Assembly (NCBI GenBank): GCA_013416795.1
Contig: RQSC01000523.1
Coordinates: forward strand, 31,538-95,537
Direction: 5' to 3'
DNA length: 64,000 bases
Source of the DNA: Prasinococcaceae sp. CCMP 1430
Taxonomy: Eukaryota > Prasinodermophyta > Palmophyllophyceae > Prasinococcales > Prasinococcaceae
Under the pieces are notes generated by a model. That model made no database searches. It had not been told where the DNA came from and saw only the letters and a list, made by a program, of their open reading frames with translations. Within the stretch, counting starts at the first letter, position 1. Each line of letters begins with the position of its first letter. Shown here piece after piece: positions 10,038 to 17,149 of this stretch. The translations under genes were made by a program, and so were the position numbers.

Positions 10038-11065
10038 ATGTTCGGCCCCCTGACAGCGCTCGCGGTGCGGTGGGTGTACCTACGCTGCGGCCTGAGCACG
10101 TTCAAGTCGCTCGTGGGTGCTGCACCGGCGACCGAGACGTCGAACTGGGACCAGGTCACGCCCACGCCTCCGCCTGCCGCGCTCACCTCACAGGGAAGCG
10201 TCCCTTCGAGCGATCCCAAGGCGGATGACGCGGAAGAGCCTGCGATGTGGGGCACGTTCTGGCTCGCGGCGATGCTGCTTGAGGCCATTTTCACGCTGTT
10301 CTCCGTGCCGCTGTTCTTCGTCCCGTTTTCGCCCGAAATCCGCCTGGCCGCCATCGTCTGGCTCACCCCTGGACCGTGCCAGTTTGGCTGCTGCGGCGGT
10401 GCCGCCCTCATCCACGCCCGCCTTGTGGTGCCCTTCCTGAAAAAGACTGATGGCAAGATCGATTCTAGATCGGCGCTCGCCTTTCTCGCGGAGAGCTCAA
10501 AGCAGGCTGTCGCAGACGCCGCTGTTGCGGCGAGGCGCTTTGCTGCTCCCATGGTCGCCACCGCCAACGAAGTCGTCGAGGACCTCACCGAGCAGGCGAA
10601 GGAGCTCCGGGAGGGCCTCATTGAGTCTCCAGCGGCTGCTGCTGCGGAGACACCCGACAAGAGAACGAGCTCGGAGAATGCCTCGCCAGCGCCAGTGTCG
10701 ATGCTCTCAAAGGTGCGCAGACAGTCCACGATACGTGCGCGCGGCTTTGCTTGCAATGTTTGCTCGCCCCGCGACTCTCTCTCTCCGCGCTGACGCTGAC
10801 GTTGACGTGTCCCGCAAACCACTTTGGCGTCCTGGCGGCGGGCATCGTCCATGCGGCTGTACGGCAGATTGTTGCGGCAGCAACTGAGCACGAGAAGGCG
10901 CGCCAGTCATCTGCGGCACACGAGACCGCCGCCGCCAACAAGGCGGACGAGGTCGTCGCGTTCGCCGCTGGGGCCGCAGCAGGCGTCACGGCCACGATCG
11001 CCGCAGATTCTGGACACCCCGAGACCCCGCCCGAAGACCCGGCGACGCCACCGCTCGACGACTAA
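10038..11065 (+). CDS. REEP/HVA22 (TB2/DP1)-like ER membrane-shaping protein
   Basis: Exons 10038-10712 and 10868-11065; the intron 10713-10867 has a GTGCGC donor and joins in phase 0 at SMLSK|IVAAATEHEKA. The start MFGPLTALAVRW is preferred because it precedes the first hydrophobic hairpin; an in-frame ATG at 9879 would add 53 Arg-rich residues. The core runs WGTFWLAAMLLEAIFTLFSV, FVPFSPEIRLAAIVWLTP, then GGAALIHARLVVPFLKK, which follows the TB2/DP1/HVA22 pattern (hydrophobic hairpins, an E in the second, PxxxEIR/KLxxxxWLxxP, ending VxPFLKK). These proteins curve tubular ER. The remainder is a helical Ala/Glu-rich cytosolic tail. The match is divergent, so confidence is moderate. Confidence 0.6.
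10713..10867 (+). other. Intron in the REEP/HVA22-like gene
   Basis: 155-nt GT-AG intron, phase 0, donor GTGCGC and acceptor GGCAG. It is placed by the change of open frame and matched phase; the flanking sequence is not conserved enough to prove it. Confidence 0.6.
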
Positions 11066-11308
11066 GTGATGCACGCAGGCCACAGTGGAGCGAGCAGAGC
11101 AATAATGACAGCTTCGTCGTGCGCATGGTGCATAGACGAAGGTCGACAAGCAAAGGGTACGAGGAGATGAGCGAGAACATTGCTTGTGCAGGCGCGAGCG
11201 ACGACACAACAAAACACACATTTTTTACGGCCAGGGTGGCCCCGTGCTCAGGTGGCGGGCATATACTTTAGCGCCGGTCACATGCACATCTGCTGTCAGC
11301 AGAACGCG

Positions 11309-12997
11309 TCAGGAAGCCTCCGCGGCCGGCGTCTGTGGCGCCGCGCCGTGCTTGTTGTCGGGGCGCCGGCGTTTGGCATCGATCGTGAAACCGTTGTCGC
11401 CTCCGCGCCGCAAATTGAACACGCGGTCGCGCCACGCCCGCGGCGAATCGCCGGGCTTGGTACCATCCACGCCATCAGGCACGACCCAGTCGACGGTCAG
11501 TAGCATAGCACTCAAGAGAATGAGCAGCTCGTTGGTCGCCAAGACTTGGCCAGGACACACTCGCGGTCCGCACCCAAAGGGCGTGAAGTTGGATCCGAAG
11601 GCCTTGCTGCCTCGCGCCACGCTCGAGCTCGCAGGAAGGCTCTCCAGCCAGGGGAGCCAGCGGCGCGGGTCGAACGCATCTGCATCGTCCCACGCCCCAC
11701 CGTCAGGGCGAGACATCTCGTTGAGCGCACTCCCTGAGAATAGAATCACGGTGTGGCCCTTGGGGATGTGAAATCCACCCACAACCAGGTCGTCGACGAT
11801 GACCTCGCGGAAGGCAAATGGGACCACAACCCAGAAACGCAGCGTTTCGAGCACGGTGGCGTTGAGCAGGGTGGCCGCCGCCAGCCCGTCCGGCGTGATT
11901 TCCGCGGTGACGTCCTCGATTGTGGCGCCCTCCTGCGCCGCTTTGGCAGCTGCGGCGGGCATCGCCGCCTCAACATCCGCGCGCAGCGCAGCCGTGAGCT
12001 CCGGCATGGCGTAGAGCTCGGGAAGGATGGCGCTCAGGCTCGCGGCGGTCGTCTCGATGCCACCAAATAGCATGTTCGTGATAAAGCCCTTCAGCCACGC
12101 AACGTCCACGCCCTCAACGCCCTCCGCCGCGGCGGCGCGCGCCAGGCGCCCGGCCATGCCGTCGCCCTCGAAGCTCTCCCCAGCCTCGGCGCGCGCAAGC
12201 ACGCGCCGCAGAGGGGCGTCGAGGATGTCGTCGATCACGCGCCTGCCTGCGTCCGCTGCGGCGCGCTCGGGGAACAGAGCAGACGAGAGCCACGACACGT
12301 CCACGCCCGGCAGGTGCGTGCACTCGAGCTTCGGAGAAAAGAGGCCCTTGGACACCGCATCGAAGCCCTCCTGCATGCTCGCAATCTGATCATCGCTCAA
12401 ATTCGCGTTGGGTCCCACGGCGGAGCTCACGGCTACCTCGAACGCCAGCCGGCGACACGCGGGGATCAGCACGGTCGGAGGGGGGGCGTGCGAAGACGCT
12501 GGCCCGGCTGCCCATCGGGCGAGATTGCGCCCGACGATGCGCTGCAGGTTGAGCCAATTGTCCGGCGCTTCGAGCGTTGCCGAGCTGATCGCGCCGGCGA
12601 CCGCGCGCCGCGCCCGGCGGTGCTCGTCGCCAGAGAGGTTGAGCAGCGCGCCCTCGGGGCCAAGCAGCTCCACCAACGACGACGGCCACGCCGAGCGCAC
12701 GGCGGTATCCTCGCGATTGAAGAGCTTGCGCACGTCCTCACCGCCGACGACAACGGTCACGCCTTCGGTGCTGAGGAGCGGCAGCGAGAGCTCAAACACC
12801 TCCACCGCATCTCCCTCGTCGCCACCAATTTCTCCTACGCCTCGGGCCGTGCGCACCGCTTCCGCTCCCGAGATGCACACCCGGTTGATGCCCACACCGA
12901 AGCCCTCCTCGAGCGACGCGAGGGTATGACCAAGCAGAGGCAGCCCGCCGGGCGCGAGCGGGGGGCGCGGCGCCGGCAGCGCTGGGCTCGCGGCGGC

Positions 12998-12999: not shown

Positions 13000-13049
<50 letters not shown>
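13000..13049. repeat. 50-nt G homopolymer (C50 on the minus strand)
   Basis: Uninterrupted G from 13000 to 13049, followed by an A. It lies at the 5' edge of the P450 coding region. Its length is likely unstable in sequencing and assembly, and the strand could form a G-quadruplex. Confidence 0.95.
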
Positions 13050-13483: not shown

Positions 13484-16400
13484 TTACACATCATCCAACG
13501 CCCCGCCTTGGTCCCCAATGCGATCAAGCACGCCGCTGGCGAAAGCGCGAGAGACGCGCAGCCTCACCACGCCGTCGCCATGCACTCTCGCAGCCAGCCA
13601 CTGCGGTGCGCCCCCGTGCGAGTCGTCGCCGCCGGCCGCGCTGGTGCCTGCGGGCGTGGAGCGAATGCAGACGCTGTGGTCGGTGCTGCCCTCGCCCTTC
13701 CACGCGTTGCGCCGCGGCGGCAACTCGCCGCGCAGCAACAGCCCACCATGGCGGCCAGCGCCGCAGAGCGCACCGTCGAGAGCGGCCGCTTTCGACGGCA
13801 TATCGCCCGCGCCCACCTCGAGGCTTTCCAGCGCTCGCACTGTGGCGGCAGCTCCGAGCGCCACCACGCAGAGCGCGCGCGCCTCGCAAAGCGCCCCAAG
13901 GAGCGCAGCGCCCTCTTGCAACGGCAGCCATCCGCACGAGGAGACGTCGTCGGCCCGTGGCGCGTCATCCGCACAGAGAGCGCCACCAGGGCAGTTGTCG
14001 TCGTTCGAAAGGTCCAGCTCGAAGACGGCAGCGCCGACTCCGAGGACGCCTCCGCACGCACGGCCGACCGACTCGAGAGTCGCTGCGGCCCGCGCGCTCA
14101 CGATGACGAGGCGCGTCGGACGCACTGGCATGTCCTCCGCCGCAGCACCGCCATCGAACTCCGCGCGGATGCACGTGCGCGCGTGCGGCCGCTCGAGCAT
14201 GGCAACGAGCTCGCCGCGCTCGAATCGCGACGTGTCGATTCCGTAGGCGTCGCAGAGTCCGGTCCACCATGCAGCCTCGCCCACCCTCTCGTACGAGCGG
14301 GCGTATTCGTAGCTCCCACTTCCGCGCACGCACACGTTCGCGGCCTCGGCCACCATCGCGCCGCCATGCCCTGCGCCCTCGTCGTCATCGCCCGCCGGCT
14401 CTATCCGGGCATGGCTGGGGGGCATGGGCGCAAGCTTGCGCAGCAGCGCCACGAAGCGCCCCGAGCCGATGATCTTGTGCGGCAGCACGCGCATGCAGTC
14501 GAGCAGCACATCACTCTCGACCTCTTCAACCTCATGCACCCCACCACCGTAGCTCTGCGGGAACATGGTGCGCATGAGCGGCCCCTTGGGCGCCCTGTGA
14601 TGCGCCGCCACATCCTCCCAGCGCTCGTACATACGAAAGAGGCTCAGCCCGCCGGGGTCGGGCACTAGCCAGCTCGTGAGCCCTGGCGCGCGCTCGAGTC
14701 CCAGCAGGTCGTTCTGGCCACTCGGCGGCGGCGCGAGCTCACACGTGCCGCCCGCGCGCCGCAGCGCCGCGAGCACCACCGCCTCGTTTTCCACCGGGTT
14801 GAAGCTCGAGGTGGTGTACGACACGAGGCCGCCCACTGCGCACCTGTGCAGCGCGCACTCGAGCATGTCGAGCTGCGCGGCGTGATGCGCAAGGCAGTCC
14901 GTCGCCCTCCACGAAGCCCAAAGCTCGGGGCGCACGCGAAGGTCGCCGTCGGCAGTAGACGCCGGGGCACACAGCACGCGGTCGAAGCGCAGCGATGGCG
15001 GCGCCGCGCGAAGCACGCACGCGCAGAGCGCCAACGCGTGCGGTGCGCCCGTCTCGCGCAGCGCACGCGTGCGAACCATCACGCGCGGGCCGCTGGGACC
15101 TTCGGCGGCGGCCAACGCTGCCTCGTCGGCGCAGGTCGCGCTGCCTTCCGCGGCCGCGGCCGCGGCCGCATCCATGCCCTCTCTCTCGCGCGCGGTGGGC
15201 TGCGCGCGCTCCAACGTCGACGTGGCGAGCACCACCGCGCCTGTCACAGCCTCGTCGCCCCCAGCGAGGAAGGCCATCGCGTGCGCCGCCTGCAGCGCGC
15301 CACCGGTGCCCTCGTGCTCGGCAGCTGCCTCGCGCGCGGCCACACCGCTGGCCGGTGCCTCATCGAGCACCAGGGTTGCTTGTGCGGGGCCGGGCGCGAG
15401 CAGCGCGACGGGAAGCGCCGCCGCCGCGTCCTGAAAGGCGAGGTCGCCCGCGGCGGCCGCGCCGCGGCACATCCGCCGCAGCTGCGGCGAGCACTGGTAG
15501 TTGTACTGCGTGACCTTCCACACGCTCGCGGGCGCCGCCCAACGCACGCGCGTCCAGCGCGGGTCGGAACGCAGATCGCGCTCGAGCGCCGAACCCGGCG
15601 TGGCGTCGCGCAGGCGCACCGCTGCGGGGCTCGGGCGACGCAGCTCGTGTTCGAGCGCCTCCCACTCCTGCTCGTCCTCTGCGATGCGCTGTGCGCGGTA
15701 GTACACGCTGAAAGCCGCGCTCGAGCGCTCGGGGTCGGGCAGGTCGGCGAGTTGGTCGTCCGCAGGGAGCAAGTGCGACAGATCGGCGCCGAGCGCTTGG
15801 CCCTCGGCGCCCCCAGGCGCGCCGCCGGCGCCGCCCAGCGCGGCGCGCGCGGCCCGCTCGGCCGCGGCGAGCCGTGCCGCGAGCCCTGCAAAGCCGTTGA
15901 GGCGCGCGAGCTCCGCCGGCGAGATGCCCGAGCGATCCCTCGCGAGCAGCTGGCGCGCGCCAACGTTGGGCACCTCGGCCCCGAGCATCCACTCGACGAG
16001 GCCCGCGTGGCCATTCCACGCGGCCTTGCACAGCCCGCAGTGCCCCTGCTGGTTGCGCAGCGAGAAGTCAAGGCCGCGCTCAAGCAGCCAGCGGCACATC
16101 GCCACATCGCCCGCGGACGCCGCCCAGTGGACGGCGCTACAGCCCCAGCGGTTGAGCGCGTGGCGGTCCACGCCCACGCGCAGCGCCCAGTCTGCGGCGC
16201 CGACGTGCGCGCCGAAGACGGCCCAGTGGAAGGCGTTCACGCCGTCCTTGGTCGCGGCGTGCACGTCGGCGCCGCGCGCTGCGAGCAGCGCGCACGCGTC
16301 CTCTTTGCCGTTGCGCGCCGCCCAGTGCAGCGGCGTGCGCCCCGTGCGATTGGGCGCGTCGACGATCGCGCCCGCCGCCAGGAGCGCCTCGCACGCGCGC

Positions 16401-16976
16401 AGCTCGCCCGCTCCCGCGGCCCAGCACAGCGCAGATGAGCCGTGGCGGTCGGTCGTCTCCGGATCCCATCCCCTCGCGAGGAGCTCGGCCAGCCGCGCAA
16501 CGTCGCCCGTGCTCGCTGCGTGCAGCCCGCAGCCGGGGTCGTCCGCGCTCTCGAACTGCGCGGCAGCGCCCTCGCGGCGTGCTCGCGCTCGGCGCTCTCG
16601 CGCGGCGGCGGCGCGCGCCACGCGCTCCGCCTTGGCGCGCGCCTTCTCTCTCTTGCGCTCGCGCTTCGCCGCCTGCTTGGCCTCCTCGCACGTGGGCTTC
16701 GAGCTCGACGGCGCGTCGGTCGCTTCCGCCTCCTCCTCCTCCTCACCCTCCTCCGCCGCCACGGCGTTGGTGCCGCTGCCGCCCCCCGCGTACCCGCGCG
16801 CCGCGGCGGCGGCCGCGAGGTACTCGTCGGCGCCGGCGACCTCCGCGCGCACCAGCTCAACTTCGAGGACGACCTCCCCGGGTTGAGCGAGGACAGCAAG
16901 CGCATGCTGCGGTGGCACCGCGAGCGCGCGGCGGCGCAACGCGGTGGCCACGCGCGCCACTCGGGTGGCAACTCGA
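13484..16976 (-). CDS. Ankyrin-repeat protein fused to a catalytically dead NSUN2-like domain
   Basis: Single open frame, stop at 13484, running into an N base at 16977. The N-terminus is acidic, then a Lys/Arg-rich helix. Five or six ankyrin repeats follow (about 15950-16530: LHAASTGDVARLAELLARG, TPLHWAARNGKEDACALLAA, AVHWAASAGDVAMCRWLLER). The C-terminal half aligns with NSUN2 RNA m5C methyltransferases: FSVYYRAQRI, LRRPSPAAVRLR, FDRVLCAPASTADGDLR, GGLVSYTTSSFNPVENEAVV, DCMRVLPHKIIGSGRFVALL. Active enzymes have PCSGDG and YSTCSLNP at these two sites; here both catalytic Cys are Ser (14957-14959 and 14807-14809), and the SAM loop is degenerate (LLAPGPAQATLVLD). I infer a pseudoenzyme, possibly an RNA- or protein-binding scaffold. 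The real start is uncertain. Confidence 0.75.
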
Positions 16977-16977
16977 N
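16977..16977. other. Single undetermined base (N)
   Basis: A lone N at the 5' edge of the ankyrin/NSUN2-like gene. A plus-strand reading LNFEDDLPGLSEDSKRM (about 16856-16976) with a good upstream acceptor (CACCAG) also ends here. This fits an assembly join. Confidence 0.9.
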
Positions 16978-17149
16978 GCGAGGCCAAGGGAGGGAGAGAG
17001 GGGCAGCGTGGTGCGCGCGCCGGCGCGGCGAGGGGGCAGCGCCCTCCGCCCTCTGGACCTCAGACATGCGCAGTTTGCCAGTATCGATACACGGTACCGC
17101 ACGATTATCGAAAGGGGCGCGGCGCAGCGGCCGGCGCGGCGCGGCGCTC

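Follow-up and report, generated by a model that had tools for sequence, protein, structure and literature searches.

The window analysed here is a stretch of 64,000 nucleotides from Prasinococcaceae sp. CCMP 1430 (assembly GCA_013416795.1, contig RQSC01000523.1, positions 31,538-95,537, forward strand), the assembly as a whole comprising 24.5 Mb in 145 contigs with about 69% GC. On the minus strand a single open frame (16987..13484) was identified in which ankyrin repeats lie upstream of a domain resembling the tRNA/mRNA m5C methyltransferase NSUN2 (TRM4). At 13000-13049 the minus strand has some 50 consecutive C, which fall within the 5' portion of a P450-like frame; upstream of the run that frame is doubtful. 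The features of the ankyrin-NSUN2-like gene, in window coordinates, are:

13484..16850, minus strand: native part of the ankyrin-NSUN2-like open frame, 1121 codons and a TAA stop, incomplete at the 5' end
16851..16977, minus strand: assembly join, a single N and a 126-base copy of sequence from contig C65, outside the gene
16570..16690, minus strand: basic, charged, probably helical segment (KRERKREKARAKAERVARAAAARERRARARR), recognised from the sequence
15857..16543, minus strand: ankyrin array of about seven repeats, counted by eye (Pfam Ank_2/Ank_4/Ank; paralogous modules on contigs C60 and C131)
15611..15727, minus strand: NSUN2-specific N-terminal segment (FSVYYRAQRIAEDEQEWEALEHELRRPSPAAVRL), supported by z-scores from shuffle tests
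14999..15508, minus strand: eroded SAM-binding half with motifs X, I, II and III
15344-15370, minus strand: remnant of motif I, VLDEAPASG
14729..14998, minus strand: core holding motifs IV and VI, well conserved (z 18-29 in comparisons with NSUN2-type proteins)
14957..14959, minus strand: TCT serine codon replacing the release cysteine of motif IV (human C271), from the alignment
14807..14809, minus strand: TCG serine codon replacing the nucleophile cysteine of motif VI (human C321), from the alignment
14414..14728, minus strand: NSUN2-like region beyond motif VI, scoring z 15.8 with human NSUN2
13487..14413, minus strand: C-terminal tail in which neither Pre-PUA/PUA_NSUN2 nor another family was detected by Pfam or shuffle tests

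Pfam recognised the ankyrin repeats clearly (Ank_2, 5.5e-26, 91.4 bits, above the curated cut-off) and the methyltransferase domain Methyltr_RsmB-F (PF01189) close to its limit (1.1e-6, 28.9 bits with the cut-off at 27, residues 659-737 only). From ankyrin repeat 6 to the NSUN2 N-terminal segment the sequence contains no in-frame ATG. The nearest ankyrin modules in the genome, with 42% identity, belong to proteins encoded on C60 and C131, which differ in that a zinc-finger-like C-x2-C...H (C2H2-like) motif comes first and is followed by the ankyrin repeats, with no methyltransferase domain seen. A tandem cluster of ankyrin-repeat frames is also found at C129:28986-39219. Neither the protein nor the NSUN alignment, used as queries, found a relative in the viral contigs.

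The first-pass annotation had described one frame encoding a protein with ankyrin repeats and an NSUN2-like domain. Pfam and the single open frame bear this out, but the first 42 codons of the frame as it was then read are foreign and the true 5' end is missing. Positions 16851-16976 are an exact 126-base copy of C65:57961-58086 which adjoins a single N at 16977, and in C65 the opposite strand reads through this tract in what is apparently the open frame of another gene, for which reason we exclude these codons from the protein. The native frame begins at 16850 or further upstream. It has no in-frame ATG upstream of residue 251, which already lies within an ankyrin repeat; the gene is thus cut short at its 5' end in this assembly, and the true N-terminus is missing.

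The C65 tract is one of six such copies examined, and every one of the six has a single N exactly one base from its start. These copies are exact or near-exact, extend from 126 to over 1000 bases and come from other contigs. In the window, single Ns with adjacent copies occur at 16977, 47799, 48966 and 59810; for two further window segments the N is on the other contig, namely 11046-12112 (copy on C11, N at C11:118890) and 14261-15511 (identical 1,251-base partial copy on C78, N at C78:501861). We read the six tracts as wrong extensions at contig joins, a systematic artefact that yields spurious duplications and spurious gene ends. The copy on C78 starts at the N, truncates the NSUN2 homology and continues into a frame resembling a ketol-acid reductoisomerase (named by eye). 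With a single N at its edge and its homology cut short, it is unlikely to be a real second gene or a recent duplication, and it looks like a join artefact of the same kind as the C65 tract. Where a single N is close by, neither a gene end nor an apparent recent "duplication" in the CCMP 1430 assembly should be trusted.

An assembly with so many wrong joins, one of which made 42 codons of this very frame foreign, raises the question of whether the ankyrin and NSUN parts are themselves different genes joined by assembly, the more so since a chimeric extension carries no N on its native side. We consider this very unlikely. The stretch from 16850 to 13484 is free of Ns, the frame and the codon-position signal continue through the linker, and the sole internal copy tract (14261-15511) has its N on C78, where the NSUN2 homology is cut, whereas C101 retains colinear homology 5' of that tract.

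The best match among solved structures is human NSUN2 (1.5e-22), the alignment beginning at the motif IV strand and running past motif VI. In shuffle tests the homology was strong in the motif IV-VI core (z 18-29) and clear after motif VI (z 7-16). The NSUN2-specific N-terminal segment scored z 7.5 against the canonical NSUN2 of the same genome (contig C24) and 5.8 against human NSUN2, and had no match in the NSUN2-like paralogs on C75 and C92. The SAM half (motifs X-III) gave weak homology only (z 2.4-4.8) and the last 300 residues gave none. Pfam found Pre-PUA and PUA_NSUN2 in the C24 protein and nothing in the tail of the window protein; a Pre-PUA match seen by eye in this tail was rejected, its profile and alignment scores being no better than those of shuffles. 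Close resemblance to NSUN2 over the C-terminal half, with the flanking structural motifs kept, had been proposed initially; motifs IV-VI and the N-terminal segment bear this out, motifs X-III do so only weakly, and the C-terminal tail does not.

In the phylogenetic tree the window protein falls on the side of NSUN2 and the Marine Group II (MGII) archaea, apart from NOP2 and RsmB (96/97), its exact place within that side not being fixed, and its branch is very long (4.64, where those of the paralogs measure 0.59-0.95). Human NOP2 belongs to a different subfamily from NSUN2 and retains its catalytic motifs. The MGII archaea (Poseidoniales/Thalassarchaeaceae) have NSUN2-like proteins with 31-45% identity to the C24 NSUN2, and an old transfer of an NSUN2-like gene between eukaryotes and MGII archaea is possible. 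In the genome itself, the NSUN2-like paralogs on C75 and on C64/C92 retain both cysteines, and the portions of them that were read gave no detectable match to the NSUN2-type N-terminal segment; over a stretch of at least 2164 bases the copies on C64 and C92 do not differ.

The catalytic and cofactor-binding residues were compared in a MAFFT alignment of the window protein with human NSUN2, the canonical NSUN2 (C24) and the two NSUN2-like paralogs (C75, C92). The replacement of both catalytic cysteines by serine and the degeneracy of SAM motif I, which had been read from the sequence at the outset, were confirmed, and the loss proved to be wider. Motif I DMCAAPGSKT (DxCAAPGSKT) has become VLDEAPASG, motif IV DVPCSG has become APASTA with loss of its Asp, and nothing in the window protein convincingly matches the acidic residues of motifs II and III. 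Of the positions that do not vary among the human, C24, C75 and C92 proteins, the window protein retains 4 of 17 with catalytic or SAM roles and 39 of 66 others (Fisher p=0.013), a count that is approximate because the alignment of motifs I-III is uncertain. All 80 NSUN2-like relatives from archaea have both cysteines intact, as do all complete NSUN paralogs in the genome (NOP2, RsmB-type, NSUN2 and NSUN2-like), and three further loci have at least the motif VI cysteine. In a check of all six frames no other frame restored the SAM motifs, and the idea that a frameshift conceals an intact motif I was rejected. Sequencing error is an unlikely source of the serine codons, as TCG is two base changes away from a cysteine codon and the whole surrounding motif differs.

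The two NSUN cysteines serve catalytic attack and release (PMC11045063), and their joint absence, along with the loss of motif I, of the residues of motifs II and III and of the Asp in motif IV, stands against a methyltransferase that is still active by means of serine nucleophiles or another cysteine. A few pocket residues are kept, for example D274, G275 and R278 (human numbering), and would suit such an enzyme, which we nevertheless regard as highly improbable.

A structural model was predicted from an alignment that included 33 archaeal relatives. Its mean pLDDT is 51.6, with a confident core at about residues 260-360, and it superposes on m5C methyltransferases with Foldseek E-values down to 3.4e-13 and VIA Z of 20-28 (up to 28.3) over residues 1-448. 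Since the alignment includes canonical active enzymes, which pull the prediction towards their own fold, the model supports retention of the fold without proving it. Taken with Pfam, the structure match, the alignment and the shuffle tests, it suggests that the proposal of a recognisable m5C-methyltransferase fold with lost catalysis, in frame with ankyrin repeats, was sound.

Such losses could also be those of a decaying pseudogene, an NSUN2 duplicate that landed behind an ankyrin gene, lost catalysis and has stayed open by chance. The very long branch, the eroded SAM half and C-terminal tail and the ease with which a GC-rich sequence keeps frames open (many overlapping ORFs are seen) speak for this reading. 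Neutral decay was simulated on the 759 NSUN codons, with 100 runs at each GC setting. In decay to 60% identity 5.5-8.8 stops were expected and none of the 100 runs remained open at any setting; in decay to 50% at most 1 run in 100 did. Moreover, the codon-position GC signal is strong over most of the frame and the GC3 of the gene (0.834) is like that of the intact paralogs on C75 and C92 (0.84-0.85), although it drops to 0.667 in the final stretch, and the losses are concentrated at the catalytic residues while neighbouring motifs are retained. The open frame and the GC3 are evidence of long constraint on the frame, though they are not a dN/dS measure. A frame of this length, open at such divergence and with GC3 like that of intact paralogs, makes a decaying pseudogene unlikely, if less so than a chimera.

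What is observed here is a fusion frame with NSUN2 homology, in which both cysteines and the SAM motifs are gone, in a genome that also encodes an intact NSUN2. In common with NSUN2/TRM4 (human and C24), the window protein has the N-terminal segment, the core with motifs IV-VI and the part that follows motif VI; it differs in having serine for both cysteines, in the loss of the SAM motifs, in the absence of a detectable PUA domain and in the added N-terminal ankyrin array. We think it probable that it is a long-diverged NSUN2 (TRM4) paralog which has lost its catalytic and SAM residues and acts, in frame with an ankyrin array, as an RNA- or protein-binding adaptor or competitor. The loss of key catalytic residues and the ankyrin fusion suggest that the protein probably binds RNA or a partner rather than methylating RNA, and the RNA-binding or scaffold role suggested for it at first is plausible as far as sequence can tell. 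According to this model, the protein would be made and would not methylate RNA, the retained target-side half of the fold would contact RNA or NSUN2-type partners, and the ankyrin array would recruit another protein, so that the net effect would be that of an adaptor or of a competitor of the active enzyme. RNA methyltransferase pseudoenzymes elsewhere serve as partners or scaffolds.

A special case of this adaptor model is that of a dominant regulator, which would pair with the intact NSUN2 (C24) or compete for its substrate. The presence of a canonical NSUN2 in the genome would fit, as would the documented non-catalytic role of human NOP2/NSUN1, an NSUN-family protein that acts in part without catalysis within RNA-protein complexes (PMC9561284); no PUA domain was detected in the window protein, and we hold this special case to be improbable, somewhat more so than the pseudogene.

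The adaptor or competitor that we favour has a parallel in Arabidopsis TRM4A, which is without motif I and whose mutant loses no tRNA m5C (PMC4535395). Both are TRM4/NSUN2 paralogs that lack a key motif and stand beside an active or active-looking copy. The description of TRM4A, however, gives motif I as missing and makes no mention of an ankyrin array, whereas the window protein has lost both cysteines and the residues of motifs I-IV. Judging from the sequence and the predicted model, the window protein appears to show the three marks of a dead NSUN paralog of the TRM4A kind, namely a kept fold, a lost catalytic motif and an active-looking paralog in the genome. Within the literature library consulted, a search for NSUN pseudoenzymes and ankyrin-NSUN fusions returned no description of such a protein. 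The first-pass annotation had put forward the whole arrangement as one not known to be described; inactive NSUN2/TRM4 paralogs do have a precedent in TRM4A, but the ankyrin fusion with a double serine appears to be new.

To our knowledge, dead NSUN2 paralogs have hardly been studied. The occurrence of a dead NSUN2 copy beside an intact NSUN2 in one organism would permit the NSUN2 fold to be tested apart from its catalysis. We are tempted to suggest, tentatively and with more doubt than confidence, that an ankyrin-NSUN2 pseudoenzyme kept by selection may serve as an m5C-independent RNA reader or as a regulator of NSUN2, which would be a use of the NSUN fold undescribed in green algae.
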